Below are positions 779 to 23,771 of a stretch of DNA of 64,000 nt, one piece after another. This DNA is from Marinoscillum sp. 108. Its GTDB lineage: Bacteria > Bacteroidota > Bacteroidia > Cytophagales > Cyclobacteriaceae. Every line of letters begins with the position of its first letter. Positions within the stretch are counted from its first letter, which is position 1. The DNA is taken from the NCBI RefSeq assembly GCF_902506655.1, contig NZ_LR734811.1:1-64000 (forward strand), read 5' to 3'. The notes below the pieces were generated by a model. The model saw nothing but the letters and a program-made list of their open reading frames with translations. It made no database searches and was not told the DNA's origin. A program made the position numbers and the translations under genes.

Positions 779-1582
779 ATGGATTTCTTAAAGCCGTTTC
801 TATTAAAGCTTGGTTATTGCTCTAAACCACAATTTATAATCATTGGAACCCAGAAGGGTGGTACCTCAGGTCTATTCAATATCCTAAACCAGCATTCACT
901 ACTTTATGGATCAAGTCAAAAAGAAGTGCACTATTTTGACAATGACGAATGGTATGAGCAGAACAAACTGGAAGAATACCATAGTTACTTTCCTCTACCA
1001 CATCAAATCCCAAAAGGAGCAAAGGTTTTCGAAGCTTCTCCACTCTACCTGTTTCACCCTAAAGCTGCCGAAAGATTATATTCATACAACCCCAAACTAA
1101 AATTAATTATACTACTCAGAAACCCTGTCGAAAGAGCTTTCTCCGCCTGGACCATGTACCACCATCATTTTTCAAACCAGCTAAGTAGTCGCCATGATCC
1201 AAGAAGTTTTTCACAAGCCATTCATTATGAACTAAATCACCTTCAAACTTCGGACTACTACAGTGATTTTAGATCCTATTTAAAAAGAGGGATTTATGTT
1301 AATCAGATTCAGAATTTCTTAAAGTTTTTCCCTAGGAAACAACTGCTTGCCATTGAGAGTGCTAGTTTAAAAAATGATTTTGACCCTACAATTAGAGAAA
1401 TATTAAATTTCATTGGAATCCCATATGCCAAGCTGGAAAATATAACCTCAAACAAAAGTCAGATTAATGATAAAAACCAATACCAACAAGAAATGAAGGC
1501 GCTTCATCAATTTTTTGAACCTTTCAATAAACAGCTGTTCGACCTACTAGACACCAACTGGAATTGGGATTACAAAACCTAG
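779..1582 (+). CDS. Sulfotransferase (PAPS-dependent, heparan-NDST-like)
   Basis: This protein of 267 residues is predicted to transfer sulfate from PAPS to a sugar hydroxyl or amino group. The 5'-phosphosulfate loop is visible near residues 23-31 (GTQKGGTSG), and the 3'-phosphate-binding segment near 113-123 (RNPVERAFSAW). These are the two hallmarks of carbohydrate sulfotransferases of the Sulfotransfer_1 type. No signal peptide or membrane helix is seen, so it should act in the cytoplasm. It is the only forward gene at this end of the polysaccharide locus, and it is convergent with the last gene of the long minus-strand operon, sharing a 4-nt CTAG that holds both stop codons. The acceptor is unknown; the neighbouring glycan is the obvious candidate. 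Confidence 0.85.
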   Translation: MDFLKPFLLKLGYCSKPQFIIIGTQKGGTSGLFNILNQHSLLYGSSQKEVHYFDNDEWYEQNKLEEYHSYFPLPHQIPKGAKVFEASPLYLFHPKAAERLYSYNPKLKLIILLRNPVERAFSAWTMYHHHFSNQLSSRHDPRSFSQAIHYELNHLQTSDYYSDFRSYLKRGIYVNQIQNFLKFFPRKQLLAIESASLKNDFDPTIREILNFIGIPYAKLENITSNKSQINDKNQYQQEMKALHQFFEPFNKQLFDLLDTNWNWDYKT

Positions 1583-2514
1583 GTAGAAGTTTTTCTAGAT
1601 AAGCGAAGGCCTATCTTCCTTAAGTAAACTCTCATTTTAATAATCAGTGCCTTCATGAGGCCTCTGAAGGGGGTTACCGAGGCTATTTTTTGTGGATCTG
1701 ACAATACCCGCAAGTACTTATCCGCATTCATCAGATCAACAATCTCCTCAATTCCGGCTGTGGCTGCATCAGTATATTTGTTGTCAAAAGAAATGTTTAC
1801 ACAAGTATACAAGTATGAAAGACTGAGTATGAGTTTACCTTTGGTGAATCTACTTGAAACACCTCCTGGATGTCTTCTATAAACAGCCATGGGAGTATCA
1901 TTATAGTGGATTTTACCCCCATTCCTCATTAAAGTAAAATACAATCCCAAATCCCCATGTGGAGAATTGAGGTACCAATCTGGCAAAACAATTACCGGAG
2001 GCTTTCTAAAAACCACACTGCATGTTGGGATGAACCAAGGTGAAAATAAATCTTCGATTTGAAACTCTTCTTTCACAATCTTCCCTTCAGAATTAAATAA
2101 ATTCAATTCCTGATCCCGGCGCTCCAAAACATTGTGGCAAGAAATTATATAATCGGAGTTAGATTCTAATAGGTCAACCTGTTGCTGAAGCTTAGAGGGG
2201 TCAGTCCAGTAGTCATCTCCTTCGCAAAGAGCTATATATTTCCCTTTAGCCTTGGGCCATAGGTACGTTGGCGAGGCTCTAATCCCCTTAGACCATTGAT
2301 TCTCCGTCTGATAAATAGGTTTGATAAGCCCAGGGTGCTTCTTTTCAAATTCCTGAATGACATGAGCTGTATGATCAGTCGAGGCATCATCATGTATGAG
2401 AATTTCAATCTCAAAATCCACGACTTGGCTTAAAAAACCGGAGATTGTATCTCTGATGAACTCTTCATGATTAAAAGTAATGCAGCAAATACTCACTAAG
2501 GGCTTATTCATCAT
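1579..2514 (-). CDS. Glycosyltransferase family 2
   Basis: 311 residues with a GT-A fold at the N terminus. It opens with VSICCITFNHEEFIRDTI (residues about 6-23), has the nucleotide-binding DDASTDHT (about 41-48), and has an acidic metal-binding EGDDYW near residue 100. No clear membrane segment is seen. It is probably the distal gene of the long operon, since transcription from 23771 ends here. Two consecutive ATG codons (2514 and 2511) can start it. The donor sugar and linkage cannot be read from the sequence. Confidence 0.85.
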   Translation of the reverse strand: MMNKPLVSICCITFNHEEFIRDTISGFLSQVVDFEIEILIHDDASTDHTAHVIQEFEKKHPGLIKPIYQTENQWSKGIRASPTYLWPKAKGKYIALCEGDDYWTDPSKLQQQVDLLESNSDYIISCHNVLERRDQELNLFNSEGKIVKEEFQIEDLFSPWFIPTCSVVFRKPPVIVLPDWYLNSPHGDLGLYFTLMRNGGKIHYNDTPMAVYRRHPGGVSSRFTKGKLILSLSYLYTCVNISFDNKYTDAATAGIEEIVDLMNADKYLRVLSDPQKIASVTPFRGLMKALIIKMRVYLRKIGLRLSRKTST

Positions 2515-2562
2515 TACTAGTTCCTGGTTATCAGCACTTATATGTATTTACCATATTAAACA

Positions 2563-3582
2563 CTACTGCTTCGATTTGTAGTTTAACCTTGCTTCATCTA
2601 TGTGCTCAAATCGTCCAAGCTCCATCTCAAGTTTCATATCTTCGAGAAGCTGTAAGTAATTATACTTTGGTTCGTACCCCAAATCTTTTTTGGCATTTTC
2701 AATATCATATAGGTACGAGGTTTGACTGGGTTTTTCAGGGCGATAGATAATTTCAGAACTCCTCCCTGTTGGGTTAAATACTTTAGCCACACCTCTTACT
2801 TGTTCTTCCAAGGAGGTGGCTTTCCCAGTAGCAACATTATAAAAACCTCTCGAATTTTCACTAGAAATGGCCTTAACCACCATTTGAGTAAAATCTTTCA
2901 CATAAACTATATCCTTTGAAATTGTTGGGTCTCCCCAAATTTCAAGAGGGCTCCCTTTTTTAGCCTCATCAATTAAGAATCTATATGCCATGATTGCCCT
3001 CCTTCCATCCACATACATTTCTGAGAATGACCTATAGCTGTAAATCGTTGGAAGCCTGAGAATTACATTTTTTATCCCGAAATCCTGAAAATAGTGTTCA
3101 GAAAGATCCACCGCGGCATTCTTGCTAATGATGTAAACCGCATGATCCCCTTTTAAGTTGAGTCTCCTTGAAGCATCTGGTGGTATTGCCTTGCCGGTAT
3201 TCCAAAAACCAGCAACGTCTGAATGAGATTGAGTAAAGATGTATTTCTCAACATTATGAACTCTGCAATATTCCAGAACATTGAAGGATCCAAGTATATT
3301 GGTTTCAAGATAAAGCGAAGGCTCATACCCTTCCATTCTGGAGGGCATCACTCCGGCTATTTGGACCACAGCTTTGACGTTAGATGTAGGTAAGGCCTCA
3401 AAAGCAGCCTTCTGCCTAATATCAATCTTTGCTGTTTCAATTCCCAGCCTTTGATAGTAGGCCTCATTAAGATTTCTATTGCCACAAACAACCAATCTAT
3501 ACTGTCCCATTTTGGACAATTCATCTACCAGATAAGTACCAAGTGTGCCAGAAGCACCCAAGATTACGATCGTCTCCTTCAT
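2563..3582 (-). CDS. NAD(P)-dependent sugar epimerase/reductase (extended SDR)
   Basis: 339 residues of the NAD-dependent epimerase/dehydratase family. The dinucleotide-binding glycine motif GASGTLG lies at residues about 8-14 and the catalytic YxxxK appears as YIISK near residue 150. The family makes or interconverts nucleotide sugars (4-epimerases, 4,6-dehydratases, 4-ketoreductases). This one does not match a single well-known enzyme closely enough to name. Its start overlaps the stop of the WbqC gene in an ATGA (3579-3582), which implies translational coupling. Together with WbqC and the DegT aminotransferase it may make a modified amino or deoxy sugar; this is inference from context. Confidence 0.82.
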   Translation of the reverse strand: MKETIVILGASGTLGTYLVDELSKMGQYRLVVCGNRNLNEAYYQRLGIETAKIDIRQKAAFEALPTSNVKAVVQIAGVMPSRMEGYEPSLYLETNILGSFNVLEYCRVHNVEKYIFTQSHSDVAGFWNTGKAIPPDASRRLNLKGDHAVYIISKNAAVDLSEHYFQDFGIKNVILRLPTIYSYRSFSEMYVDGRRAIMAYRFLIDEAKKGSPLEIWGDPTISKDIVYVKDFTQMVVKAISSENSRGFYNVATGKATSLEEQVRGVAKVFNPTGRSSEIIYRPEKPSQTSYLYDIENAKKDLGYEPKYNYLQLLEDMKLEMELGRFEHIDEARLNYKSKQ

Positions 3583-4280
3583 TGTTCTAATGTATAACTT
3601 CTTAATAAATGGCCCATACTGGTAACATCATTGTACATCATGGCGTCTAGGATTGACAAATTATCTGAGAACTGCGTATTGGACTGATTATAGGTTAGGT
3701 CTTTCATTTTTATAAATGCCAATCTTATATGCTCACGCTCAAAGTCCTCTTTTTTATAAAGGATTCTGCCGTTAGACGCATTAATATAAAAATCACAGTT
3801 TAATCTCTTACAAATATCCAACACTCTATCTAATCCTTTCAGATGGTCGTTATCCCACGCTGCTGAGGACACAATGAACTCTTTATCAATACTAAGATGC
3901 TTGCATAACTTCTTTAAGCCGTTGATATTGAACTCCGAAAGGCTCCTGAATGGGGTGTTAACTATTTCAGAAATAAGCGGAAAAACCTGATCAAACTGTG
4001 GTGCTCTATAGTAGCACGATTCAATATTCTTCAATAGTTTATCCTTCCATCTAATATTTTCAACTACTTGTAATTCATTAATCCTCTTATTGGCAGATGC
4101 CCCCTCAATCATGGCATTAATGTATCGTACTTCACCTCTATACTGAATCCTGTTTCTGTTAACCCAGCCCCCCTTTATGTACTGAACATCATCATAAAAG
4201 ACGAAGCTATCACATGAATGTATTAGCTGAAAGTAACCCAAATATGGAAAGAAGTAGGGTTGCATTATTGCTAATTTCAT
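3579..4280 (-). CDS. WbqC family protein
   Basis: 233 residues beginning MKLAIMQPYFFPYLGYFQLI, the characteristic opening of the WbqC family (PF08889). Conserved FYDDVQY and NRNRI segments follow. WbqC-like proteins occur in O-antigen and capsule loci, often beside DegT aminotransferases, and are thought to help modify amino sugars; I am not aware of a settled reaction. No signal peptide or transmembrane helix is seen. The start codon overlaps the stop of the upstream sulfotransferase in ATGA (4277-4280), and its own stop overlaps the next start. Confidence 0.85.
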   Translation of the reverse strand: MKLAIMQPYFFPYLGYFQLIHSCDSFVFYDDVQYIKGGWVNRNRIQYRGEVRYINAMIEGASANKRINELQVVENIRWKDKLLKNIESCYYRAPQFDQVFPLISEIVNTPFRSLSEFNINGLKKLCKHLSIDKEFIVSSAAWDNDHLKGLDRVLDICKRLNCDFYINASNGRILYKKEDFEREHIRLAFIKMKDLTYNQSNTQFSDNLSILDAMMYNDVTSMGHLLRSYTLEQ

Positions 4281-5479
4281 AAACTAAGGTAGTTATACTT
4301 TTCCAGCAGAGAATCACCAGTCAGTGTTTTGAAATTCTGGTTGGAAGCATTGAGTAAGTCCTTTATCAATCCACCATAATTAGACTCCCAGGATAAGTTA
4401 ATATCATCTATATCTAAAATGGGTGCTAATTTTTTTGACAAATCACAAAGACTGTTTCTGAAATGATAATCTATGTAATGTTCGTTATCAACCCTGGGTT
4501 CCCTCAGGAAATCGGTATAATAAGGAATAAATCGGTGGGTGTCAAAAGGATGCAAAAAGCCACTCTCGAAAGAATGAGGGAATCTCCTGTTGAGCTCAAG
4601 CTTAATGGCTAATTCCCGGTCTGTAAGCTGCTCATTATACTCCGATTCGACATGGGTGATCCTATCATCCAATTCTAATTCATTTGAAATTCTTTTGAGG
4701 AATTGCTTCGAATTTTCTCTCATTTCCTCGAAAAAGAAGACTTTTATATTCTCTCGGCCAAAAAGATGAGCATATAAATTGAAAACCCGATCATAATTCA
4801 AATCACTCAGAAAATTTCTATCCTGATACTGCCATATGTATTTCAGGTAATCATCAAAACTTCCGTTATACCCAAACCTGACTGTTTCCTTATAAAGTGA
4901 GCGGATCAAATCAGTCTGTCTCCTAACAACCATTAGAATTTTTGTGCCCGATTCGAATATTCCAAATAACCTTTTGGCTTTGGTTGTTGTATCTATACCT
5001 CCGTGCCAGTTGAAGCAAATGTTTTCATTGGAGATACCAACCGCGCTTACCATTTTATTACTGTCAGACTGAAGGAAATAATTTTCAAAAATCCCCTTCA
5101 CTTGAGCTTGATCATAGGAAAGATCGTTTTTGAATCTCAGATCTATCTCAAGAGCCATGTTCACATGCTTATCAATGTATCCATGGTCATCCCAGTAACC
5201 CTTCACACTATCATTTCCACATCCCAAGTGTAGAAGTTGCTGATGCCTACCAAAAAAACCTCTCTGAAGTGCTGTAGAAGCAGATTTTGGATATCCGATA
5301 TGGATATAGCGGATTGCCTTCTCAGTTTTTCTCGGCTTAATTGGTTTACTCAATTTGGTCACTGATGACTGTTCTTTTGCCAAATGCTCTTTGAGGATTT
5401 TATGTATACCAAAATGCGAAAATATCTTTCTCAGATTGAGATGGTACAGGCTCCTTGCTAATGTGCTAATCTTTTTCAT
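4277..5479 (-). CDS. Sulfotransferase-like protein
   Basis: 400 residues. A PAPS-binding loop is visible near residues 58-70 (HIGYPKSASTALQ), and a 3'-phosphate-binding-like segment (VVRRQTDLIRSLYKE) lies near residue 185. The first 55 residues are basic and have no clear partner in the fold; they may be a separate helical extension. The rest is typical of bacterial sulfotransferase-domain proteins with an unknown carbohydrate acceptor. It lies between the DegT aminotransferase (3-nt gap) and WbqC (4-nt overlap), so it is likely co-expressed with aminosugar enzymes and may act on an amino sugar. Confidence 0.78.
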   Translation of the reverse strand: MKKISTLARSLYHLNLRKIFSHFGIHKILKEHLAKEQSSVTKLSKPIKPRKTEKAIRYIHIGYPKSASTALQRGFFGRHQQLLHLGCGNDSVKGYWDDHGYIDKHVNMALEIDLRFKNDLSYDQAQVKGIFENYFLQSDSNKMVSAVGISNENICFNWHGGIDTTTKAKRLFGIFESGTKILMVVRRQTDLIRSLYKETVRFGYNGSFDDYLKYIWQYQDRNFLSDLNYDRVFNLYAHLFGRENIKVFFFEEMRENSKQFLKRISNELELDDRITHVESEYNEQLTDRELAIKLELNRRFPHSFESGFLHPFDTHRFIPYYTDFLREPRVDNEHYIDYHFRNSLCDLSKKLAPILDIDDINLSWESNYGGLIKDLLNASNQNFKTLTGDSLLEKYNYLSL

Positions 5480-5482
5480 ACC

Positions 5483-6556
5483 TTAAAGAGCCTTTAGAAG
5501 AATCTCAGCAATCTTTTCTTGATCACTCTCGGTCAACCCATAATACATAGGGAGACATAAAATTCTTTTTGAGATGTCCTCGGCTATAGGACAAGATTGG
5601 CTTTTCACATAGTCCAAACTATTTAAAGCCGGATAAAAATACCTCCTTGGAAAAATATCACTTTCTTCTAGTCTTTTCTTTACCTCGAGTAAAATTCGTT
5701 CACTCTCAAAAATTATGGGATAATAAGAGAAGTTAGATTCTCCGGCTGAACTAACGATAGGCCTTCTAACTCCAGAGTGCTGCAATAATGTATCATAAAA
5801 AACACTCAACTTCTTACGATCGAGGAGTATTTCATCAATATAGTTCAGGTTTACTAAACCCATGGCTGCATGGAATTCACTGACTTTCCCATTGATTCCA
5901 ATGCCTTGGAATTTTTCTGAACCGTCGTGACCAAAATTTCTCATGAACGCAACCTTTTCGAGCCATCTCTCATCTTTAGAGAAGATTCCACCTCCCTCAA
6001 TGGTGTGATATAACTTAGTGGAATGAAAACTAGATATGCTTATGTCTCCATATTCAAACAATGATTTGTCCTTATATTTCGAACCAAACCCATGTGCTGC
6101 ATCAAAAATAAGTTTTTTTCCCCTGCTCTCACTTAAAAATTCAAGAGATTCAACATCACATGGATTTCCAAAACAATGAGTAGCAAGAATCCCATCGACC
6201 CCATGACCAAGTGCTTCCTCAACCCTCTCTGGGTCAATGTTCAATGAATCTGGGTCAATATCAACAAAAATGGGCTCACACCCTTCCCACACCAAACTAC
6301 TGGTAGTGGCCACATAACTAAAGGGAGTGGTAATGACCTTACGTTTCATCCCCAAAACTTTGATAGCCAATTGCAAAGCAATGGTTCCATTATTCACTAG
6401 CAACATCTCCTTAATTTTTAGGTATTTTGCTAGTCTATCCTCCAATTGGCGAACATTAGGTCCATTGTTCGTTAACCAATTATTCTCCCATATTTCGTTG
6501 ATATATTTTTGATATTCGTCCTTTTTTGGCAGGAAGGGCTGTGTAATAGGAATCAT
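5483..6556 (-). CDS. DegT/DnrJ/EryC1/StrS family aminotransferase
   Basis: 357 residues of the PLP-dependent sugar aminotransferase family, which converts a keto group on a nucleotide sugar to an amine. Visible family features are TTPFSYVATTSSL near residue 76, DAAHGFGSKY near 152, and HSTKLYHTIEGGG near 179, whose lysine should form the Schiff base with PLP. Length is normal for the family (about 360-380). A keto-sugar donor could come from the PseB/CapD-like dehydratase at 24886-25842 or the epimerase at 2563-3582. Regiochemistry cannot be told from sequence. Confidence 0.9.
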   Translation of the reverse strand: MIPITQPFLPKKDEYQKYINEIWENNWLTNNGPNVRQLEDRLAKYLKIKEMLLVNNGTIALQLAIKVLGMKRKVITTPFSYVATTSSLVWEGCEPIFVDIDPDSLNIDPERVEEALGHGVDGILATHCFGNPCDVESLEFLSESRGKKLIFDAAHGFGSKYKDKSLFEYGDISISSFHSTKLYHTIEGGGIFSKDERWLEKVAFMRNFGHDGSEKFQGIGINGKVSEFHAAMGLVNLNYIDEILLDRKKLSVFYDTLLQHSGVRRPIVSSAGESNFSYYPIIFESERILLEVKKRLEESDIFPRRYFYPALNSLDYVKSQSCPIAEDISKRILCLPMYYGLTESDQEKIAEILLKAL

Positions 6557-6587: not shown

Positions 6588-7223
6588 CTAATGACTTGAA
6601 TTAAGTTTTGGGAAAACTTCCCTCACAGGATTAACACTGAGAAACGAACAAAACTTATTATAGCTAGATTTATCATTCAAATTGATCACCAACAAATCCA
6701 TTTTCCGCTCTTTGAAGTAGTCCTTAATGCCACGGTTATACTCATTGTAAAACCGAATCAAAATCTCCCTGTTGTATGGATCACTCTCGGGAGTGTCAAA
6801 TAAAAGCCTATTCACCTTCCAAGGTCTTCCTGGTGATGAGTTGAATGCAGCTTGCAAGTGCTCTTTGGTGGGTGTTTGTCCGTTTGCCCACAACTTTCCA
6901 TGAAAATTGATTAGGGAGGAAACCCACTGATCCGGATCATCCCTTTCCGTTAGAATAAACTTACTCCCTGGAAATGCCTGATCCAGCGCAACGTAAGTGT
7001 AGGGAAATGAAAAGGGTGAATCCTGAAAGGCTTCAGCGCTTTTACAATATTTCACTATTGGACGGAAATCTCTCATAGCCCAACTATCTAGTAAACCCTT
7101 GGCCTTCTCCTCATCACCCACTTTGAATCCGAGCTCACCAAGAGCGAATTTCAGCGAGGTGGTACCTGTCTTGTTAAGACCAACACAAAAAATCTTCCTT
7201 GCTTGAGAATACCTTCCGAACAT
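6588..7223 (-). CDS. Sulfotransferase family protein
   Basis: 211 residues from the ATG at 7223. A longer frame starts only with TTG at 7253 and would overlap wzt by 20 nt, so the ATG is preferred. The N terminus holds the PAPS loop CVGLNKTGTTSLKFAL directly after the start, which resembles the compact Sulfotransfer_4-like group. FILTERDDPDQWVSSL near residue 110 fits the 3'-phosphate-binding segment. It lies between the exporter ATPase and the aminotransferase. The acceptor is unknown. Confidence 0.8.
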   Translation of the reverse strand: MFGRYSQARKIFCVGLNKTGTTSLKFALGELGFKVGDEEKAKGLLDSWAMRDFRPIVKYCKSAEAFQDSPFSFPYTYVALDQAFPGSKFILTERDDPDQWVSSLINFHGKLWANGQTPTKEHLQAAFNSSPGRPWKVNRLLFDTPESDPYNREILIRFYNEYNRGIKDYFKERKMDLLVINLNDKSSYNKFCSFLSVNPVREVFPKLNSSH

Positions 7224-7233
7224 GCTTTTGACG

Positions 7234-8448
7234 TTAAGACCAATAGGATTCAAACTCGATGGGTTGCCAAATATCTCTGTCTGATAAAATCTGAAATGTC
7301 AGAACAGAAGATATTCTCAAAACTCTCTCCCCATCATTGGTTACGGATAGAGTAAGGGAGTAAATCCCCTTAGATAGATTAATATGGTCAGTTTTAAGGT
7401 TCAAATGAATTTCACTAAACTCAGAATCTATTCTCGTAATCTTGTCATTCGGAATATCCTCTTTTGGCCAAATCAAACCAATGGGTCGCTGTTCCAAATC
7501 AAACACAATTAAATGTATTTTCGGATTTGCATACTGGTTGGAAATTTTGAGTCTTATTTCCACCACCAGATCATCTCCATGATTAACACTAAGGGTGCCC
7601 TGCGTCAGTTGAGCATTCTGGATACCAATTTGCAAAAGTTCCACCCCCCCCTCAGTATTAATGAACTCAAGACCCTTGGTGCTCATCATACTGTAATACT
7701 GATCTATCCCGGAGGGTACATTGCTCCCCGTATATACCACCTTCCCGTGGTCCAGCAACATCAGTTGATTTGAAAGTCTGGAAACCTGGGGCATTTGATG
7801 GGAAACAAAAATGACCGAGCAATTTGCAATTAGTCTGTCTAATAAGTTCAAGCATTTTAACCTAAAACCAATATCCCCTACAGCCAGAACCTCATCAATA
7901 ATTAAAATGTCGGGCTCCAGTTGAGCTGCAACAGCAAAACCCAACCTAACCTTCATGCCTGAACTGTAATTTTGGACAGGTGTATCAATAAATTCTTCTA
8001 ATTCTGCGAACTCAACGATTTCATCAAACTTCTCTTCAATTTCCTTTTTATCAAACCCCAGAACCGCAGCATTGATGAAAACATTCTCCCTCCCTGTCAA
8101 AATAGGATTAAATCCAGCTCCCAATTCAATCAGGGCACCAACCTTACCTCTCATCTCTATTCTACCAGTATCCGGTTTTATCAACCCATTCAAAATCTTA
8201 AGTAATGTGCTTTTTCCAGCTCCATTATGACCTATTAATCCAAGACATTCACCCCTGCGAAGTTCAAAAGAAACATCCTTTACAGCCCAAAATTCTTCCT
8301 TCCGTAATGTTCTATTCCGATCGCGACCTATCAGCTCAAAACCAATATCCTTCATGCCATACCACAAGGATCGTTTTAGACTTTTACAGAACTTTTTCGA
8401 AACTCCTTCGGCTTTGATGAGTATTTCTCCTGATCCTCTATTCTCCAT
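7234..8448 (-). CDS. wzt: Polysaccharide ABC exporter ATPase with C-terminal binding domain (Wzt-like)
   Basis: 404 residues. Residues about 1-245 are an ABC ATPase: Walker A GHNGAGKS at 73-80, the signature YSSGMKVRLG near 162, Walker B ILIIDEVLAVGD near 183, and a switch histidine in SHQMPQ near 217. Residues about 250-404 form a beta-rich extension like the Wzt C-terminal domain, which in E. coli O8/O9a binds the modified non-reducing end of the O-polysaccharide. The protein should energise glycan export through the permease encoded 2 nt upstream (8451-9305). The long C-terminal domain suggests that the exported chain carries a terminal modification that is recognised before export. Confidence 0.93.
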   Translation of the reverse strand: MENRGSGEILIKAEGVSKKFCKSLKRSLWYGMKDIGFELIGRDRNRTLRKEEFWAVKDVSFELRRGECLGLIGHNGAGKSTLLKILNGLIKPDTGRIEMRGKVGALIELGAGFNPILTGRENVFINAAVLGFDKKEIEEKFDEIVEFAELEEFIDTPVQNYSSGMKVRLGFAVAAQLEPDILIIDEVLAVGDIGFRLKCLNLLDRLIANCSVIFVSHQMPQVSRLSNQLMLLDHGKVVYTGSNVPSGIDQYYSMMSTKGLEFINTEGGVELLQIGIQNAQLTQGTLSVNHGDDLVVEIRLKISNQYANPKIHLIVFDLEQRPIGLIWPKEDIPNDKITRIDSEFSEIHLNLKTDHINLSKGIYSLTLSVTNDGERVLRISSVLTFQILSDRDIWQPIEFESYWS

Positions 8449-16144: not shown

Positions 16145-16945
16145 TTACATGGCCCCAGATGGAGTAAAATGCGCATTTGGTGAAGCATCCCCGCGCAGAT
16201 GATCTTCGATGCGTGCCAGCAACTCATCATCTAAGTAATTCCGCCAATCCGTAGGGTCTGCTTTTCTATACATTAATCTGCCTTCTCCTTTCCGCTGATC
16301 GGTCGAATTTCTCTTTTTCATTAAATCGAATGACTCACTTGCAATCGCCATATCAATGATTCCTTCCTCCAATTTGGGGAGTTGAAGTTCCTTAATTATT
16401 CGCTCAACTTCACTCCGGGTATTCGAGACAAGTTGATTATAATCAGAAAAACAACAGGCTCCTTTCAGGCTATTAGATTTCCACCCTTCAAGGTGATTTG
16501 TCCAGGTTCCAAACCACGGGACTCCATTGAGTAATAAGTCTTCAATAAATGTATTTAACCTTTTTCTATTTCTCCTGTATACGAAAATTTTCTTTGGCTT
16601 CAGAAGGAGGTCAGTCCATCTAAACAACCTATAGTATTCCTGAAAATCAGGGGACTCATAAAAATAAAAGAATGATGAAATGGCTACTGATGGAAAATCT
16701 CTGGATAAATAAATCACTCTTTCCGGGTCAGAATCTATCTGTCTAAAATTATCTATGGTATAGTGACCCTTCCCTATAAAGCCGTTTTTAGAGTCTGAGG
16801 AAATTCGATCATTTATCTCTGTCGCTATTTCGTGGTTTCCCATCACCACCTTTACTTCCAAGTTATAAAGATGGGCAAATAGCCTGGTCACCCAGGTATT
16901 TCCTGATCTGGGATACCCTATCACGTACAACTTAATTTTATCCAT
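16145..16945 (-). CDS. Sulfotransferase domain protein
   Basis: 266 residues from the ATG at 16945; the codon before it is TTG, and the start overlaps the GT11 gene by 8 nt. The PAPS loop is very clear at residues about 7-19 (VIGYPRSGNTWVT), and VIYLSRDFPSVAISSFFYF near residue 78 is the 3'-phosphate-binding segment. This is closer to classical Sulfotransfer_1 enzymes than the other three in the locus. It directly follows the fucosyltransferase-like gene, so a fucose residue is one possible acceptor. That pairing is inference. Confidence 0.87.
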   Translation of the reverse strand: MDKIKLYVIGYPRSGNTWVTRLFAHLYNLEVKVVMGNHEIATEINDRISSDSKNGFIGKGHYTIDNFRQIDSDPERVIYLSRDFPSVAISSFFYFYESPDFQEYYRLFRWTDLLLKPKKIFVYRRNRKRLNTFIEDLLLNGVPWFGTWTNHLEGWKSNSLKGACCFSDYNQLVSNTRSEVERIIKELQLPKLEEGIIDMAIASESFDLMKKRNSTDQRKGEGRLMYRKADPTDWRNYLDDELLARIEDHLRGDASPNAHFTPSGAM

Positions 16946-17789
16946 CAATTTCTATTTGATGCCACCCCTCGGGAATGACAGCCACAGGGTACTCACGTTT
17001 CACTTTGAACCCCAGCCAGTACTTTGGAACTATAACTTGCCGGTCTTCCTTCTTATTCAAATATGCTGCCCACCAGGCAAAAGTGCTATTTGAAATGATC
17101 GCTACGTCTGCAAATTGAATCAGCTGGAAATCAATAATCGCTTCATTTTGCACAATCTCATGCGCTCCCCACCCTGTCAGGTTTTTCTCACAATAGGCCA
17201 CATCATTTGTGACCACCACCTTGTAGTATTGATCAATTCCATCAATGTAGCTCCTTGCCATTTCATAATACTGAACTGGCAAACTCAGATCGTACCCAAG
17301 CTTTTCATTGCCTGAGTGTTGGTAGTCTCCCCTCCTTACATGAATGACCAGAAGTTTTCTTCTCCTTAACTTATTGGCGTATAGTTTATCAAACGCCATG
17401 ACATATTTTGGTCTTACTCTGAAACTGTTTACAATAAGATTCCGATGCGACTCAAAAAACAAACTTGATTGAAAATAGCCAATAAAAAATGCACCACGCT
17501 CAAGCAAGGGTTTAGCCGAATCGGGGTGATCCCAATTACTAACATTTACCTCTTTTTTCAGTACTCCCCCCCACATACATCGAAGCATAAAATTGTACAA
17601 CCGCGGGTGTAATATTCGTTTTAACAAATAACCCAAATTTCTTGACGGACCTACAAAATATTGCAAGTCATCCTTTAGATCAATTTTAGTAATCAAAAAG
17701 GGTGTCTTCAAGTGTCTGGAAGTGGCTAGTCCAAATGCGTATTGAAAGAGCTGATTACCCAGCTGGCCTCTGGAATTGATTATGATCAT
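16938..17789 (-). CDS. Alpha-1,2-fucosyltransferase-like protein (GT11)
   Basis: 283 residues. It has the GT11 hallmarks: IIINSRGQLGNQLFQYAFGL at the N terminus, the GDP-binding VIHVRRGDY near residue 150, and ISNSTFAWWAAYL near 238. Characterised bacterial members (FutC, WbsJ, WbnK) transfer L-fucose from GDP-fucose in alpha-1,2 linkage. GDP-fucose synthesis genes (gmd, fcl) are not in this window. Its ATG overlaps the stop of the GT2 gene before it (17786-17789). Confidence 0.9.
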   Translation of the reverse strand: MIIINSRGQLGNQLFQYAFGLATSRHLKTPFLITKIDLKDDLQYFVGPSRNLGYLLKRILHPRLYNFMLRCMWGGVLKKEVNVSNWDHPDSAKPLLERGAFFIGYFQSSLFFESHRNLIVNSFRVRPKYVMAFDKLYANKLRRRKLLVIHVRRGDYQHSGNEKLGYDLSLPVQYYEMARSYIDGIDQYYKVVVTNDVAYCEKNLTGWGAHEIVQNEAIIDFQLIQFADVAIISNSTFAWWAAYLNKKEDRQVIVPKYWLGFKVKREYPVAVIPEGWHQIEIDG

Positions 17790-18733
17790 CTGAAGAAGAA
17801 AATTCGATCCAAATGAAGTATTTCTAAGAAGGTACGCCGAGGAAAACTAAATAAGCATAAGAACAGACACTTCCCCATATGAAGATAGCTTGATTCTTTG
17901 CGAAACTTGGAGATCAAATACTTGTTATGCTCAAATATTGTGATTTTCCTAAAATCCATAAGTTCATGCTCTGACACAAGACCGTGTTGAAAATAATAAT
18001 TGACCACCTGCATCCGTGTCTTATAGAGCCCAGAATATATTGTGTCCATATTTTGAGAGATGATTTTCACCGTATCGCTGTCCGACCATTTACGATGGTG
18101 ATGAAGTATGCGGTCTACATAATAGGTTTGCGAATGAGCTCCGATTCTAAACCACATTTCAGTGTCGCCCCAGTGAAACTCCATAAAATTACCCACTTTT
18201 TCAATCAAGCCCCTTCTCATCAACCCAATACCCTGCTTCATCACGGGATAAGATAAAAACCCATGGGGGCCCTGTTTGACCAAGTCTACGCAGGAAAATG
18301 CTTGATTCATAAACTGATCAGGAGCTGGCAAGGGTTGATCGTTCATTGTTTCTCCCGATTCATTAATAATATCATGACCTGCACAGACCAACCCCACTTC
18401 CGGTTGAACATCTAATATATTGACGCATACTTCGATCATTTCCGGATCCCACCAGTCATCGGCATCCAACTTACCCCAGTAATCCCCTGTGCAGAGGGAC
18501 ATCCCATAATTCCAGTTTGGCATCATTCCAAGATTTTTCTCATTCCGGAAAAGCTTGATTCTGGAATCCGATGAGGCATACCGCTGGCAAATGCTATATG
18601 TATCATCCGTAGAACAGTCGTCTACAATTACCAATTCAAAATCTCCATAAGTTTGATTCAGTATAGATTCGATGGACTCAGCAATGAAATCCTGAGTATT
18701 GTAAACTGGAATTAAAATAGAAACCTTAGCCAT
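17786..18733 (-). CDS. Glycosyltransferase family 2
   Basis: 315 residues. VSILIPVYNTQDFIAESI (residues about 4-21), DDCSTDDT (about 37-44) and KLDADDWWDPEM near residue 87 form the GT-A core. HWGDTEMWFRIG near 190 is the second acidic motif. The start overlaps the methyltransferase end by 8 nt. A basic C-terminal tail ends in FFFR. Confidence 0.86.
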   Translation of the reverse strand: MAKVSILIPVYNTQDFIAESIESILNQTYGDFELVIVDDCSTDDTYSICQRYASSDSRIKLFRNEKNLGMMPNWNYGMSLCTGDYWGKLDADDWWDPEMIEVCVNILDVQPEVGLVCAGHDIINESGETMNDQPLPAPDQFMNQAFSCVDLVKQGPHGFLSYPVMKQGIGLMRRGLIEKVGNFMEFHWGDTEMWFRIGAHSQTYYVDRILHHHRKWSDSDTVKIISQNMDTIYSGLYKTRMQVVNYYFQHGLVSEHELMDFRKITIFEHNKYLISKFRKESSYLHMGKCLFLCLFSFPRRTFLEILHLDRIFFFR

Positions 18734-19463
18734 TCTTCTGTGCCTGCATCACAATTGTTTCAACCTTATTTGGCACCAATCCCATTTCGTTCATATGCTG
18801 CTCCACACCTGTTAGCTCCGGGTCATTACTTTCTCCCACCTCATACTTCCTGACATGATTGAATCCATTCGTCTCAAGCAAATGAGTTAATGTGAACTCA
18901 GTGTGAATGAACCGATGCTTAAAGCCATAGAACAGCTTATTCACCACAAATGCGGGATCTCTGGGAACACCCTGATCAATGAATAGATTATAATAATGGT
19001 CTATATATTCTTTGTGCTCAGGGGTATCAGGATTTTGCAAAACCTGGATGGCACCCATCAGATTAGGGGTTGCAATCCTGATTTTTCCTTGAGGCTTCAG
19101 AACTCTAAAACACTCCTTGATCATAAAATCTGCGTCCCCATAGGGTATATGCTCGATCATGTGTTCAGCAAAAACGTAATCCAACGTATTGTCCCCAAAT
19201 GGAAAAGTCTTGGTAGCGTCCATGTAGACCACATGGTTTGCCTTAGGCTCAATATCTGCATTGAGCCAGCCATTTATGGAATTGCCTTGCGCACCAATTT
19301 GTAGCTTTTTTGGACTGCTTGAGGACATGTAATCTTGAATCAATTGGTCTTGACGGCTTATGTGAAAGCGCTGGGACAATTTTTCCGGGGTTTGTCCCAA
19401 TAAAAGCCTTACACTCCGTACCACATGGACGATTATTGGATACTTCTTCAATCTATTGAACAT
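18726..19463 (-). CDS. Class I SAM-dependent methyltransferase
   Basis: 245 residues. The SAM-binding region is divergent: KLQIGAQGNSINGWLNADIE (residues about 54-73) replaces the usual GxGxG, while DNTLDYVFAEHMIEHIPY near 96 and FRVLKPQGKIRIATPN near 122 are typical of Methyltransf_11-type enzymes in glycan loci. The AEHMIEH segment is common in bacterial sugar methyltransferase-like proteins. The first 50 residues are basic and may be regulatory. It is one of two methyltransferases in the operon. Confidence 0.84.
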   Translation of the reverse strand: MFNRLKKYPIIVHVVRSVRLLLGQTPEKLSQRFHISRQDQLIQDYMSSSSPKKLQIGAQGNSINGWLNADIEPKANHVVYMDATKTFPFGDNTLDYVFAEHMIEHIPYGDADFMIKECFRVLKPQGKIRIATPNLMGAIQVLQNPDTPEHKEYIDHYYNLFIDQGVPRDPAFVVNKLFYGFKHRFIHTEFTLTHLLETNGFNHVRKYEVGESNDPELTGVEQHMNEMGLVPNKVETIVMQAQKNG

Positions 19464-19470: not shown

Positions 19471-20649
19471 CTAAATTAACTTTTGATAGGTTTCCTGATA
19501 TTCAGCACTAATTAATTTCCAGTCGAATCGTGAGATCACTTTGTCGATATTTCTTCTTAAATCGGCATAAACCTCTGGGTCAGATGCCATTTTGACAATG
19601 GCATCTTCAATTTCCCCAATATTTGGTTTTCCATCATCGTGAAATCCCACCACATAGCCTGCATAATGCTCACCATCTTGCATTACTTCTGGCAATCCAC
19701 CCCAGTCCGTGACAATCACCGGCTTACCATTGGACAAATACTCCAGCACAGAAATACCAAATGTCTCTCCTTCAAAAAAGGAAGGTAGCACCCCGATATC
19801 AAAACCAGCAATATAAAGCCCCGGATTTGAACTATAGCCTGTGAAAACAATTCCTTCTTGATCACCATAGGTTTTGGCTAACTGGTCCAAAAAGGTGCCC
19901 TCCCCCACCAAAACCAGCTTCATTTGTCTCTGGACTCTCTTTTTGGCACCTAAAAATGCCAAAATCAGCGCCTCCCAACCTTTGCTCTGATGCCCTCTGG
20001 CAACCATCCCCACTACAAATGAATCCTTATCTTTTTGTTCTTCATTTTTCACTGGAACAAATGGCAGACCATTGTAAATAAGCTTTATTCTTTTCGGATC
20101 CAAAGCTAAATAGCTGGCTAATTTCCTCTTAGCAAACTCTGATACAGCCACCCAGCTATTCACTCTCCCTATGACAATCTCATCAATCTCCTCACCCTTT
20201 CTCATTCTCAATAGATAGTCCCCTTCTTCGGTAACCACGAGTGGAACGGATGAATGCAAGTGCTTCGCACAATTCAAATCAGAAGGATATAAAAAAGAAT
20301 GGACCACGTCAACCCGGTGTTTCCAAATGATATATTTAAACAAAAGACCAATCATCTTTTGGCGAATCGAAGGTGATTTGCCACTCGATTCTTCAAGTGC
20401 ATTCAATTTCCACCCAAGGTAATTAATTAGGTGAAAGCGGTTTAGGTCATAATATCTAACTTTTTTCGAGAGGAGCGTATTCAACATTTGAGTCTCTACC
20501 TTATCTCCATTCCAGACAAAAAAGTAAACTTCCGTCTGAGAATTCTCACTCAATATTGAGGCCAACTTGAGCGCAAAGGTCTGAGCCCCTCCTACTTCAA
20601 GTGTACTAATCGAGATCAATATTTTTTTGTGGGTGCCAGATTTATTCAA
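19471..20649 (-). CDS. Glycosyltransferase family 4
   Basis: 392 residues of GT-B type. ISTLEVGGAQTFALKLASIL near the N terminus is the usual GT4 acceptor-domain glycine loop. VVGMVARGHQSKGWEALILA near residue 212 and EGETFGISVLEYLSNGKPVI near 293 form the donor site with its E-x7-E. The start is a TTG that overlaps the preceding stop as TTGA; no ATG occurs before the conserved region. Confidence 0.9.
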   Translation of the reverse strand: MNKSGTHKKILISISTLEVGGAQTFALKLASILSENSQTEVYFFVWNGDKVETQMLNTLLSKKVRYYDLNRFHLINYLGWKLNALEESSGKSPSIRQKMIGLLFKYIIWKHRVDVVHSFLYPSDLNCAKHLHSSVPLVVTEEGDYLLRMRKGEEIDEIVIGRVNSWVAVSEFAKRKLASYLALDPKRIKLIYNGLPFVPVKNEEQKDKDSFVVGMVARGHQSKGWEALILAFLGAKKRVQRQMKLVLVGEGTFLDQLAKTYGDQEGIVFTGYSSNPGLYIAGFDIGVLPSFFEGETFGISVLEYLSNGKPVIVTDWGGLPEVMQDGEHYAGYVVGFHDDGKPNIGEIEDAIVKMASDPEVYADLRRNIDKVISRFDWKLISAEYQETYQKLI

Positions 20650-21602
20650 TTTCGAAAGGACTTTTGTCTTAGAATATTAGCTAACCAGTACGCATTAAAA
20701 ACTGCAACCACCAGATAGAGTAGATACCTCACACCGGGTTTGATCAAGAATGCTTGAAATACCTTTTTTACCCCTTTTTGGTAGTCTAGTTTGAGCGTAT
20801 CGATAGCAATGTTCATCAAAAAATCTATATCAGAATTCAGGTACTCCAAATTGAGATTGACCAACTCGAAAAAGGGGGAATGCTTGCTAAATTCCCTTCT
20901 CATCACTATCCGATAATAATAGGTATTCCACAAATTACTACTTGTGTTATTTTCATGTCTTCTCACTAAGGCCAACCCTCCGGGTTGACTATTGAAGATG
21001 AATTTACATCCCGCATTCAGGCAAGATAACCAAAACATCCAGTCTTCATTATATCGAAAATCCGGGTTAAACAACCCGACTTTCCTAAAAAGTTCTTTCG
21101 GTATCAAGGGGGAATTAATTGTAAAGGGTCCTTTGAGCAGAGTTCGGCCAATCTCCACCCCAGATCCTGATACCTCGGGAGTATCAAATGATCTTACCTG
21201 GTTTTTGTGCCCGTTGAAAGATTCACCAAAAATCCGGTGATGTGAATAAACAATATCAACATGGGGATTGATACGATGGATTTCAACTTGATAACGGATC
21301 TTGTCAGGCTCCAGCATATCATCGGCATCCAGTAATTGAATGAAATCCCCCTTTGACACTTCCAATCCCAGATTTCTGGCGGCATTGGGTCCTGAATTTT
21401 TCTGGAACAAATAGCTAATTCTTGAGTCCTTTTTAGCGTATTCCAGTGCTACTTTCCTGGTGTCATCCTCCGAGCCATCATCTACTATAATGCACTCCCA
21501 ACTGGGATAGCTCTGTGCCAGCACACTATCCAGACACTCCGGGAGATACCTCGCATAGTTATAACAAGGGATAATGACTGAAACCAAGGGATATTTACTC
21601 AT
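20646..21602 (-). CDS. Glycosyltransferase family 2
   Basis: 318 residues. VSVIIPCYNYARYLPECLDS (residues about 7-26), DDGSEDDT (about 40-47) and QLLDADDMLEPDK near residue 90 are the GT-A motifs. RYNEDWMFWLSC near 190 is the acceptor-side acidic motif. A C-terminal hydrophobic helix (YLLYLVVAVFNAYWLANIL) probably anchors it to the inner membrane. Its ATG overlaps the stop of the previous gene (21599-21602). Confidence 0.88.
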   Translation of the reverse strand: MSKYPLVSVIIPCYNYARYLPECLDSVLAQSYPSWECIIVDDGSEDDTRKVALEYAKKDSRISYLFQKNSGPNAARNLGLEVSKGDFIQLLDADDMLEPDKIRYQVEIHRINPHVDIVYSHHRIFGESFNGHKNQVRSFDTPEVSGSGVEIGRTLLKGPFTINSPLIPKELFRKVGLFNPDFRYNEDWMFWLSCLNAGCKFIFNSQPGGLALVRRHENNTSSNLWNTYYYRIVMRREFSKHSPFFELVNLNLEYLNSDIDFLMNIAIDTLKLDYQKGVKKVFQAFLIKPGVRYLLYLVVAVFNAYWLANILRQKSFRN

Positions 21603-22447
21603 GATTTTCTAAAGAACCTCTTCTTCAAAACATACAATACATCAAGCAGTTTCCTCATTTTATTTCTACCCAACAATACTGAAACAATGCTCATCTTAAT
21701 ACCAGTCATCATTGAGCCCGCTTCAATCTCATGATTGCCCTCTTTGCTTAAGTGTTCAAAATAAGCTTCATTATTAGAATCTATCCCCAAATGAGTCTTA
21801 CACAATTTGTGCTTAATCCTAAGGAACGGTAAATCCAAATGAGCAGCACTAAAGCCTCTTTCATCAAAAACGGCAATTGGCTCATTCGTATAGAAATTAT
21901 GGTTCGGATTCAAACCAAAAGCCTTAATCATGAATGCATAATCCGCACAACTTTTATAGCGCTGATCAAATAAACCGCACCGCACAAACAAACTCCTGTG
22001 AGCAAATATAGCCTGATGACAAATGACTCGCTCCGCCAGCTTTTCATTCGTATATTCAAATCCATATCTCCTCCCAGAATGCTTGAAAAAGACATCTCCA
22101 TAAACGAAATGGACTTTCGGGTAATAAAGGTGGTCAGCAATTGCAGAGAGGGCATTCTCGTACAACTGATCATCCGAACCCAGAAAATACAACCACTCCC
22201 CACTGGCCATGGCAACGCCCTTATTCATGGCGTCATAAATACCCGTATCGCTCTCACTTATCCATTTAACTCCATATCCCTTATAATCCTCTATGATTTC
22301 TAACGTTCGGTCCGTGCTGTTCCCATCAATCAACAGTACCTCATAAGACGAATAGGATTGGTGGCAAACAGAATCCAAGCAACTTCTCAGAGTAAGTTCC
22401 GCATTGAAAGTAGGGATGATTATCGATATTGTAGGTTTATCAGGCAC
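21599..22447 (-). CDS. Glycosyltransferase family 2 (WcaA/WcaE-like)
   Basis: About 282 residues from a GTG at 22447. The frame extends to a TTG at 22501, but the GTG has AAGGA 9 nt upstream and leaves only an 8-nt overlap with the preceding gene, so I prefer it. TISIIIPTFNAELTLRSCLD opens the GT-A domain; DGNSTDRT and ESDTGIYDAMNKGVAMASGE near residue 75 are typical of the colanic-acid-type GT2 subgroup. FLGSDDQLY replaces the usual D-x-D as GSDD, as is common in this subgroup. Confidence 0.85.
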   Translation of the reverse strand: MPDKPTISIIIPTFNAELTLRSCLDSVCHQSYSSYEVLLIDGNSTDRTLEIIEDYKGYGVKWISESDTGIYDAMNKGVAMASGEWLYFLGSDDQLYENALSAIADHLYYPKVHFVYGDVFFKHSGRRYGFEYTNEKLAERVICHQAIFAHRSLFVRCGLFDQRYKSCADYAFMIKAFGLNPNHNFYTNEPIAVFDERGFSAAHLDLPFLRIKHKLCKTHLGIDSNNEAYFEHLSKEGNHEIEAGSMMTGIKMSIVSVLLGRNKMRKLLDVLYVLKKRFFRKS

Positions 22448-23771
22448 GGCTATCAGTCCTTTTCCTGAAGTTTTGTCCCTCACTAATAAGATAAAGGCCA
22501 ATGATGAAAAACGGAATTAGAGGTATCCTGTACCTAACCAAAGATCCGAAATTATAGGTGGAAATTCCGATAGCGAATGCAAATGCCAGTGAAAAAACCA
22601 TACAAAACCCTACCACTGGGTTGGAAAATATCTGGCTAAAAAACCGCGAAAGGCCAATTTTCCAAATAACCCTGATCAACAGAACGATCATAAAAAGACT
22701 CTCCAATGCAGACAACAGCATGACAGGATTGCGTACTTCCCAAATTACTGGCCGAAAAAGCCCTGTAAACACGGCCATTGGAGCCTTCCTTATCATCCCG
22801 CCCGTGGAGAAATCATAATCTCCGAATGTATATACCGACCCAGCCTGTTGCTCGCCCACATACTCCAACCATTTGGCAGTCTCTTCGGCAGTATAGGCTA
22901 TTGCATCCAATGAATACCTTTGATTATCTTCTGATATTTCCTGAACGGAAAAAAACCCTCCAAAAATTACTATGATTACTATAAATGGAACAATTAATAG
23001 TTTGAGGGCCCAATTGTCAATTCTCTTCATGCTGGCAAATCCAACCATTACCATAATCCCCGGAATCAAACACATCAAAATATAAATCTTGATAGTATAG
23101 AGGATATAAAACGACACGATAAAAATTAATACCATCGAAATCGAATAGCGCCTTTGAAAAACCACACCAAACACCCCATAAACTATCCAACCCAAAGCAG
23201 AAAGTGTGATGGGGTCCTTTAGTATTCCAGATCCCCAAAACCATAATGATGGAATAAATAAACAAGCTACAGCCAATTGTTTGACCAAAGCTGGATAAAG
23301 GGTGCAGAATGCATTGAACAATGCCCACACTCCGCTAAAACTTAGCACCGCAAAAAAAATGGCTATAGAATAGTAGGATCCACCACAAACAACCCCAAAA
23401 AAACCCACAATACGAGCAATAAAGTATGTGGGGGCATCCCCAAAGGTAAAAATCCTGGAAGCATACTGATAGGTATCGGGATGATATTCTGTTGGCCCGA
23501 AAACAAGCCTGAACCATGCCATCGGGGATTCAAAAAAACTATTGGCAATAATCACCCCAGGCTTAAAGTAATAATTAAATGTATCTCCACCATACCCGTA
23601 GTAAAACTCAAAAATAAAACCCACCATTACGGCTCCAAATATTTTCAGATATAAGGCAGGTAAAAAATACCTTCGAGTCTGGCGATTCGTAAAGTATGGT
23701 CTCAGAAAAAAAGCGCCCACAGAAATAAGTAATAAGTAAAATGGTGTAAACAGCAAATCCCTAACTCCCAT
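22440..23771 (-). CDS. Polytopic membrane protein, possible glycan polymerase
   Basis: 443 residues with about ten hydrophobic helices and no ATPase or transferase motif. A conserved-looking segment, FIPSLWFWGSGILKDPITLS near residue 170, and a large non-cytoplasmic loop near 275-320 recall EpsG/Wzy-type polysaccharide polymerases, but the similarity is only in topology and context. It is the first gene of the minus-strand run, so any operon promoter should lie in the 60-bp divergent gap 23772-23831, where I see no convincing TAnnTTTG box. It overlaps the next gene by a few bases. A chain polymerase is unexpected beside a Wzm/Wzt exporter. Confidence 0.7.
   Translation of the reverse strand: MGVRDLLFTPFYLLLISVGAFFLRPYFTNRQTRRYFLPALYLKIFGAVMVGFIFEFYYGYGGDTFNYYFKPGVIIANSFFESPMAWFRLVFGPTEYHPDTYQYASRIFTFGDAPTYFIARIVGFFGVVCGGSYYSIAIFFAVLSFSGVWALFNAFCTLYPALVKQLAVACLFIPSLWFWGSGILKDPITLSALGWIVYGVFGVVFQRRYSISMVLIFIVSFYILYTIKIYILMCLIPGIMVMVGFASMKRIDNWALKLLIVPFIVIIVIFGGFFSVQEISEDNQRYSLDAIAYTAEETAKWLEYVGEQQAGSVYTFGDYDFSTGGMIRKAPMAVFTGLFRPVIWEVRNPVMLLSALESLFMIVLLIRVIWKIGLSRFFSQIFSNPVVGFCMVFSLAFAFAIGISTYNFGSLVRYRIPLIPFFIIGLYLISEGQNFRKRTDSRA

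Follow-up and report, generated by a model that had tools for sequence, protein, structure and literature searches.

A Wzm/Wzt export locus of Marinoscillum sp. 108 with four unlike sulfotransferase genes, two of them in a cassette that recurs in other Cytophagales

Loci for sulfated capsules exported by ATP-binding cassette (ABC) transporters are already known from the literature. Thus, in Vibrio sp. KMM 8419, an 80-gene cluster combines an ABC transporter and glycosyltransferases with three sulfotransferase genes, cysC, cysN and cysD, according to the passages of the paper that deal with the cluster (PMC11641403). Here, we analyze a locus in Marinoscillum sp. 108, which NCBI assigns to Cytophagales and whose genome consists of 5.21 Mb in 12 contigs; the stretch of DNA examined, 64,000 nucleotides long and hereafter the window, forms the beginning of contig C4. 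At positions 779-23771, the window holds four sulfotransferase genes (ST1 to ST4) together with the Wzm/Wzt exporter and a series of glycosyltransferase genes. The gene content suggests that this variable surface-polysaccharide locus probably directs the synthesis of a sulfated, O-polysaccharide-type glycan exported by Wzm/Wzt. By sequence comparison, ST2 and ST3 belong to a cassette that is kept in M. pacificum and, in shorter forms, in other Cytophagales, and this is the new element of the locus.

The Vibrio cluster and the present locus share ABC export, glycosyltransferases, several sulfotransferases and the genes for 3'-phosphoadenosine-5'-phosphosulfate (PAPS), but the PAPS genes lie inside the Vibrio cluster and on another contig in Marinoscillum sp. 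108. Furthermore, the cluster description places one of the Vibrio sulfotransferases in an O-antigen part that has a Wzx flippase, whereas here the exporter Wzm/Wzt itself adjoins a cassette of sulfotransferase, DegT and WbqC genes. Cobetia marina KMM 1449 (PMC11766843) resembles the locus in ABC export, a sulfotransferase and PAPS synthesis with CysQ, but its gene description lists kpsETMD/kpsSC and wcb genes. By comparison, the 30 proteins of our locus and its flanks that were scanned against Pfam contain no match to export or chain-length families, i.e. outer-membrane polysaccharide export (OPX), polysaccharide co-polymerase (PCP) or kps-type families; in this, and in having the PAPS genes on another contig, the locus differs from the Kps type seen in Cobetia. 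In the wbsalmo locus of Aeromonas salmonicida, which encodes an ABC-exported O-antigen, wzt is followed by a 216-aa open reading frame (ORF) with a sulfotransferase domain, likened here to ST3 by position and domain label, not by sequence; a DegT/WbqC neighbour is absent from the gene-table rows around that ORF (PMC4483657). The WzmWzt exporter of Aquifex aeolicus likewise pairs Wzm with a Wzt, the C-terminal domain of which, putative in the window Wzt, binds carbohydrate, the caps named there being methyl, (methyl)phosphate and 3-deoxy-D-manno-oct-2-ulosonic acid (Kdo), and the word sulfate is absent from the main text (PMC9445017). In the sulfated-polymer cluster of Pontiella sulfatireligans, a sulfotransferase likewise occurs together with GT2/GT4 genes, and a methyltransferase and a VioA-type transaminase are also encoded, but the gene list in the figure legend has one sulfotransferase and no ABC exporter (PMC7356697).

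An earlier note on this DNA, made from the sequence alone, had placed four PAPS-type sulfotransferases of different subgroups at 779, 4277, 6588 and 16145, each with a visible phosphosulfate loop. All four open reading frames exist, and profile searches assign all of them to the PAPS type. In the profile comparison, ST1, ST3 and ST4 score above the Pfam cut-offs, whereas ST2 on its own remains below (Sulfotransfer_1 16.9 bits, cut-off 22; PDB E 0.62) and is placed by its family: the profile of 14 members, ST2 and 13 relatives, reaches E 2.6e-14 with PDB 3rnl ('Sulfotransferase'), and Sulfotransfer_1 is matched at E <= 0.01 by 11 of the 14. The best PDB match of ST1 is heparan sulfate 3-O-sulfotransferase 1 (1zrh, E 1.5e-24) and that of ST4, which is like the cytosolic SULTs, is estrogen sulfotransferase (1aqu, E 2.3e-11); ST3 has weak PDB matches (E 0.0084). 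The 5'-phosphosulfate-type loop is found near the N terminus of each of the four proteins with a pattern that was written with these proteins in view, was checked in the first 70 residues and arises by chance in 0 to 0.06% of 5000 shuffles per protein. All four also have R-x7-S at the expected 3'-phosphate site (ST1 R114, ST2 R186, ST3 R104, ST4 R83), a weak sign on its own because the same spacing recurs elsewhere within ST1, ST2 and ST3. The residues invariant in the ST2 family include H60, G62, R186 and S194. A search of NCBIfam returned zero matches for the four sulfotransferases, the WbqC-like protein and the 299-aa and 443-aa proteins of the locus (Table 1). The best E value among the four sulfotransferases is 0.04, which indicates that they are not recent duplicates. 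Thus, as judged from profiles and motifs, all four are PAPS-type sulfotransferases of unlike subgroups, as the note had it.

The genes next to the exporter, with the conserved cassette around ST3 and ST2 that the earlier note leaves unmentioned, are transcribed in the order Wzm, Wzt, ST3, DegT, ST2, WbqC, epimerase, GT2. The M. pacificum genome (MRN461; G133 in our numbering, in which Marinoscillum sp. 108 is G000) is collinear, with the order Wzm, Wzt, ST1', ST3, DegT, ST2, WbqC, epimerase, GT2, i.e. with one extra sulfotransferase, ST1', and identities of 64% for ST3, 54% for DegT, 53% for ST2, 52% for WbqC, 64% for the epimerase and 32% for GT2. Outside M. pacificum, Wzt-sulfotransferase or sulfotransferase-DegT adjacency was found in G066, G204, G243, G055, G088 and G002. 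Thus, in G066, Wzt is followed by a Sulfotransfer_4 protein, DegT (54%) and WbqC (33%); in G204 (L078 6241-10928), by two tandem ST1-like proteins (37 and 41%), DegT (54%) and WbqC (48%); and in G243, Wzm, Wzt and ST3 (48%) are present and the contig stops about half a kilobase further. G055 has ST3 (41%), DegT (54%), a hexapeptide acyltransferase and a GT2a-like gene, without an adjoining Wzt. In G331 and G215 the order is Wzt-DegT-WbqC, and in G166 and G441 it is Wzt-DegT, a match to the window sulfotransferases being absent at those places. DegT relatives at E <= 1e-60 occur in 160 of the 390 genomes of the order, so that a DegT neighbour alone is ordinary. That DegT precedes WbqC in several loci, and the hexapeptide acyltransferase in G055, agrees with an amino sugar that is N-acylated. 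We presume that the WbqC-like protein performs N-acyl or aminoacyl transfer onto the amino sugar; a PDB search gave no useful match for it or for the 299-aa protein, and excerpts of the open-access literature that names WbqC give no function.

The cysD, cysN and cysC genes, which the earlier note had proposed looking for elsewhere in the genome, are present on contig C1, where an APS kinase (249.5 bits, above the NCBIfam cut-off; APS, adenosine-5'-phosphosulfate), a CysD-type PAPS_reduct protein, a CysN-type GTPase and a CysQ-type phosphatase are adjacent (L011 11951-16030). Gmd, the enzyme for the GDP-fucose precursor, is encoded on the same contig about 22 kb beyond the APS kinase (597 bits). 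The cysC-cysD-cysN-cysQ genes lie in another polysaccharide locus (L011 11951-19768, G000:C1 ~3.23 Mb); Poly_export/SLBB and Wzz genes come right after them, and no Sulfotransfer_1 match was found there.

The site of the locus was compared in six genomes of the genus, all of which have the flanking tetratricopeptide repeat (TPR) gene, and could be read fully across in G133, G161 and G007. One border consists of the 443-aa protein, a GT4 and the TPR gene, and the other of a protein of ~1,900-1,975 aa. In the window, positions 1-600 (minus strand) encode the start of a long protein, cut by the contig end and probably secreted, that is 41% identical to the long border protein of G133, relatives of which occupy the same border in G161 and G007. 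The sulfotransferase cassette is present at this site in the window and G133, i.e. in 2 of 4 loci; G007:C8 has Wzm/Wzt without the cassette, G161 yielded no match to Wzm/Wzt or the cassette at the site, and in G180 and G088 the contig stops inside the locus. Such differing contents at one genomic site are expected for an O-antigen-like locus.

The joint presence of sulfotransferases, PAPS genes, Gmd, GT11, methyltransferases and an ABC exporter leads naturally to a surface glycan that is sulfated and may also carry fucose and methyl groups; of the sulfated, fucosylated and methylated glycan in the earlier note, the gene families needed are all present, and we retain fucose and methyl groups as possible. 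From the observed gene families, gene order, PAPS genes and cassette conservation, we infer as follows which enzymes are active, on which acceptors and in what sequence, and that the glycan is attached to lipopolysaccharide (LPS). Cytoplasmic glycosyltransferases would assemble a lipid-linked heteroglycan, with fucose probably supplied and attached through Gmd and GT11, and the two methyltransferases may methylate it. DegT would aminate a keto sugar from the epimerase/dehydratase, the amino sugar would be N-acylated by WbqC, presumably, or by a hexapeptide transferase, and GT2 would transfer the product. The four PAPS-dependent sulfotransferases, with differing acceptors and PAPS from the separate cysC-cysD-cysN-cysQ operon, would sulfate the chain before export by Wzm/Wzt; ST3 and ST2 may target the DegT-made amino sugar or its neighbour, and ST4, located near GT11 and a methyltransferase, may modify that part of the chain.

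Several observations weigh against this proposal. The genome encodes two additional PF01507 proteins, so that PAPS or APS may also feed sulfate assimilation. In M. pacificum, ST1' is 34% identical to ST1 and lies at a different place, and no match to ST4 was found in the 60 kb read at that locus. The C-terminal domain of the window Wzt scores 26.2 bits with Wzt_C, below the cut-off of 30.4, and in the Wzt_C search of 196 genomes of the family neither this Wzt nor that of M. pacificum was matched. Finally, the A. salmonicida authors, in the part of the paper on that ORF, report no such residue in the known O-antigen (PMC4483657), so a sulfotransferase gene does not guarantee sulfate in the repeat. 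As for the exporter, an ABC ATPase (PF00005) adjoins an ABC-2 membrane subunit (PF01061), and the window Wzt is 49% identical over its full length to the Wzt of G066, whose Wzt_C scores 53 bits. In general, a C-terminal domain on Wzt is a typical feature of O-antigen export. With respect to the known chain terminators, WbdD-type kinase/methyltransferases and Kdo transferases, the 30 scanned proteins gave no match to a kinase or Kdo-transferase family and include two stand-alone methyltransferases. A second Wzt_C match in the genome (G000:C1 1924153-1924437, 30.3 bits) may belong to a second ABC polysaccharide exporter.

Within the proposal of a sulfated glycan, one arrangement, to which we assign slightly less than an even chance, is that only repeat units are sulfated, the four enzymes decorating different sugars of the repeat and ST3 and ST2 lying near Wzt by an accident of operon growth. 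This arrangement agrees with the frequent clustering of sulfotransferases in the family, with the sulfated rhamnose in the assembly proposed, in the capsule passages, for Vibrio KMM 8419, and with the position of ST4, next to GT11 and distant from Wzt, but it leaves the recurrence of the Wzt-ST-DegT-WbqC order in several genera to chance. Whether ST3 and ST2 act on every repeat or on the last residue only would decide between this ordinary sulfation and an export-licensing cap. In the latter case, which we consider unlikely, one or more Wzt-proximal sulfotransferases would, with DegT, WbqC and the epimerase, make a sulfated amino sugar at the non-reducing end, which would stop elongation and be bound by the C-terminal domain of Wzt, while decoration of the chain would fall to the remaining sulfotransferases. 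In favour of a cap, the cassette begins right at Wzt in G000, G133, G066 and G204, and in A. salmonicida a sulfotransferase-domain ORF directly follows wzt and yet no such residue is reported in the known O-antigen (PMC4483657), a case that fits a once-per-chain sulfate and, equally, an idle gene. Wzt-read caps are a precedent, those named in the main text of the Aquifex paper being methyl, (methyl)phosphate or Kdo (PMC9445017), and excerpts of the mainly open-access literature on sulfotransferase/Wzt and O-antigen chain termination name no sulfated export cap.

The neighbours and C-terminal domains of Wzt were compared statistically, starting from the Wzt_C list of the 196 family genomes; the first 60 rows by rank were fetched, 59 of them with a usable Wzt (G008:C850, without a Wzt frame of 330-500 aa, was excluded). 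Because the Wzts of the window and M. pacificum are missing from it, this list under-samples Wzts of their kind. The set termed unascertained omits nine loci that had been found via cassette, DegT, C-terminal or synteny searches (the window, G133, G441, G243, G204, G331a, G215, G166 and G007:C8), and the C-terminal similarity tests excluded four loci that had neither a sulfotransferase nor DegT and in which under three genes followed Wzt. Sulfotransferase calls rest on profiles seeded with the window proteins, the seed label being a label only (the protein of G088 is a Sulfotransfer_3 one), so that other subgroups may be missed, and all p values are nominal, come from many tests and are uncontrolled for kinship among genomes, which itself counts against a cap.

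A sulfotransferase directly follows Wzt in 4 of 56 unascertained loci, compared to 9 of 462 other positions (Fisher p = 0.042), and the enrichment persists for positions +1 and +2 pooled (p = 0.037) but is gone over +1 to +3 (p = 0.20). For DegT, position +1 shows no enrichment (p = 0.46), +1 and +2 together give p = 0.054, and over +1 to +3 it is more frequent than elsewhere (8/164 vs 6/354, p = 0.041). For DegT-flanked Wzts, the nearest C-terminal neighbour is also DegT-flanked in 12 of 15 cases (permutation mean 3.4, reached in 0 of 5000), a count to which loci detected via DegT or, in the case of G441, via C-terminal similarity itself contribute; in the unascertained set this holds for 4 of 8 (mean 1.0, p = 0.032), but neither the mean C-terminal similarity (p = 0.087) nor the ATPase-corrected similarity (p = 0.15) is significant there. 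For sulfotransferase-flanked Wzts, the nearest-neighbour test fails (2/10, p = 0.42; unascertained 2/6, p = 0.16); the ATPase-corrected similarity gives p = 0.064 for all loci and p = 0.012 for the unascertained ones. Several individual cases also argue against a cap. The C-terminal profile of the window and G133 Wzts matches one other genome of 390, G441, where Wzt is followed by DegT and a match to the window sulfotransferases is absent; the best C-terminal partner of the window Wzt, G039, has no sulfotransferase or DegT in the next six genes (a DegT relative lies ~7 kb upstream); and G055 carries ST3-DegT without an adjoining Wzt. An early contrast of three genomes, in which the C-terminal domains of G000 and G133 were alignable with each other and not with that of G007 (G133 and G007 are 76% identical in the ATPase and 74% in Wzm), does not stand as strong support, being weakened by the 755 of 2278 pairs of 68 Wzts that are alignable at z >= 5. 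Taken together, these statistics on a cap are suggestive and mixed. The extended conjecture that sulfate serves certain Cytophagales as a quality stamp for export, with an N-acylated and sulfated amino sugar, made at the growing end by DegT, WbqC and one or two Wzt-adjacent sulfotransferases, both halting elongation and being bound by the C-terminal domain of Wzt, appears improbable to us.

The product could also be a sulfated capsule or exopolysaccharide instead of an LPS O-polysaccharide, which is conceivable but on the whole less probable. ABC-exported sulfated capsules have been published (PMC11641403, PMC11766843, in their sections on capsule genes), but OPX/PCP matches were found in 0 of the 30 scanned proteins, the Poly_export/Wzz pair that does exist belongs to the C1 locus, and the putative C-terminal domain of Wzt, a feature also described for the A. 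aeolicus exporter, speaks for O-antigen export. We consider it unlikely that one or more of the four enzymes do not sulfate the glycan, being decayed or acting on a lipid or small-molecule acceptor. Such a role might be suspected for ST2, which searched alone is far from solved enzymes, and for ST1, which lies on the opposite strand, but the 5' loop and R-x7-S are intact in 4/4, R186 and S194 are invariant in the 14-member ST2 family, and M. pacificum retains both ST2 and ST3, at 53-64% identity.

Close relatives of ST3 are few: matches at E <= 0.001 occur in 11 of the 390 genomes of the order, four of them, the window's included, at >180 bits, and in 11 plasmid records, all at <= 33.3% identity. 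A scan of genome contigs for ST2 matched one locus, that of M. pacificum; it used two short peptide patterns, which distant relatives would escape. The expectation in the earlier note that several sulfotransferases in one ABC-export locus are uncommon is not supported. Two or more Sulfotransfer_1 matches share a stretch of 25 kb in at least 15 of the 196 family genomes, that of the window among them (G000, G002, G003, G013, G019, G059, G066, G072, G076, G091, G100, G116, G165, G170 and G192), counted by proximity and read by eye at places not confirmed as polysaccharide loci; the Vibrio ABC cluster, with three sulfotransferases in the published description, is a further case (PMC11641403). In G072:C4 (~315.7-336 kb), four Sulfotransfer_1 matches and one ST2-like gene lie within ~21 kb, a higher density than in the window. 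Elsewhere in the Marinoscillum sp. 108 genome there are four further Sulfotransfer_1 matches, three of which exceed the Pfam cut-offs of two sulfotransferase families (L014 6371-7285, L015 7171-7941 and L016 8898-9935); the fourth, scanned as protein, gave nothing at E <= 1e-6.

The locus comprises 23 close-packed minus-strand genes (1579-23771), the 22 intergenic gaps ranging from -62 to +48 bases, and ST1, which is convergent with this run (Table 1). Thus, the tight packing described in the earlier note is borne out, as are its two methyltransferases, GT11 and Wzm/Wzt, all confirmed by Pfam; its single operon applies to the 23 genes and not to ST1, which runs the opposite way, and its count of at least 11 glycosyltransferases in addition to GT11 is reached only with GT11 included (seven GT2, three GT4/GT1-type and one GT11 above the Pfam cut-offs). 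The 299-aa protein amid the glycosyltransferase genes is possibly an unrecognised glycosyltransferase. The 443-aa protein at the locus edge is probably a membrane protein, judged by eye from its sequence, with orthologues 38-41% identical in six genomes of the genus; a relative (42%) also adjoins Wzm/Wzt in G175. Near the locus, at 27934-30900 (plus strand), a 988-aa TMEM260-like protein O-mannosyltransferase is encoded (PF11028, 256 bits; 76% in M. pacificum).

Table 1 Genes of the sulfotransferase locus in the window.
Feature	Position	Strand	Evidence
ST1, sulfotransferase, heparan-sulfate-3-O-sulfotransferase-like	779..1582	+	Sulfotransfer_1 (PF00685) 68.2 bits, cut-off 22
GT2 glycosyltransferase (GT2a)	1579..2514	-	PF00535 61.7 bits
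NAD-dependent epimerase/dehydratase, cassette member	2563..3582	-	PF01370 104.7 bits; 64% to G133
WbqC-like protein, cassette member	3579..4280	-	PF08889 222.6 bits; 52% to G133
ST2, divergent 400-aa sulfotransferase, cassette member	4277..5479	-	PDB 3rnl, matched by the family profile
DegT/DnrJ/EryC1 sugar aminotransferase, cassette member	5483..6556	-	PF01041 275.1 bits; PDB 2po3 E 2.9e-47
ST3, Sulfotransfer_4-type, adjoins Wzt, cassette member	6588..7253	-	PF17784 84.3 bits, cut-off 22.8
Wzt, ABC ATPase with C-terminal domain (~residues 256-404)	7234..8448	-	PF00005 90.3 bits
Wzm, ABC-2 membrane subunit	8451..9305	-	PF01061 35.6 bits
GT4-type glycosyltransferase	9317..10546	-	PF13439 41.6 bits
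Methyltransferase	10543..11535	-	PF08241 68.4 bits
GT2 glycosyltransferase	11510..12385	-	PF00535 112.2 bits
GT4-type glycosyltransferase	12382..13515	-	PF00534 82.5 bits
GT2 glycosyltransferase	13512..14405	-	PF00535 88.9 bits
GT2 glycosyltransferase	14407..15243	-	PF00535 74.5 bits
299-aa protein	15231..16130	-	no match in Pfam, NCBIfam or PDB
ST4, SULT-like sulfotransferase beside GT11	16145..16948	-	Sulfotransfer_1 (PF00685) 70.2 bits
GT11 (fucosyltransferase family)	16938..17789	-	PF01531 62.1 bits
GT2 glycosyltransferase	17786..18733	-	PF00535 126.8 bits
Methyltransferase	18726..19463	-	PF08241 37.6 bits
GT4-type glycosyltransferase	19471..20649	-	PF00534 92.1 bits
GT2 glycosyltransferase	20646..21602	-	PF00535 131.7 bits
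GT2 glycosyltransferase	21599..22501	-	PF00535 100.9 bits
443-aa hydrophobic protein	22440..23771	-	no Pfam or NCBIfam match

The locus offers four unlike sulfotransferase candidates for one glycan, and a conserved gene order links two of them with the exporter and an aminotransferase, so that predictions on their acceptors are open to single-deletion tests. The conserved order of Wzt, sulfotransferase, aminotransferase and WbqC is the part worth following. Should the chain end indeed carry the sulfate, sulfate would become one more chemical signal that clears a chain for export.

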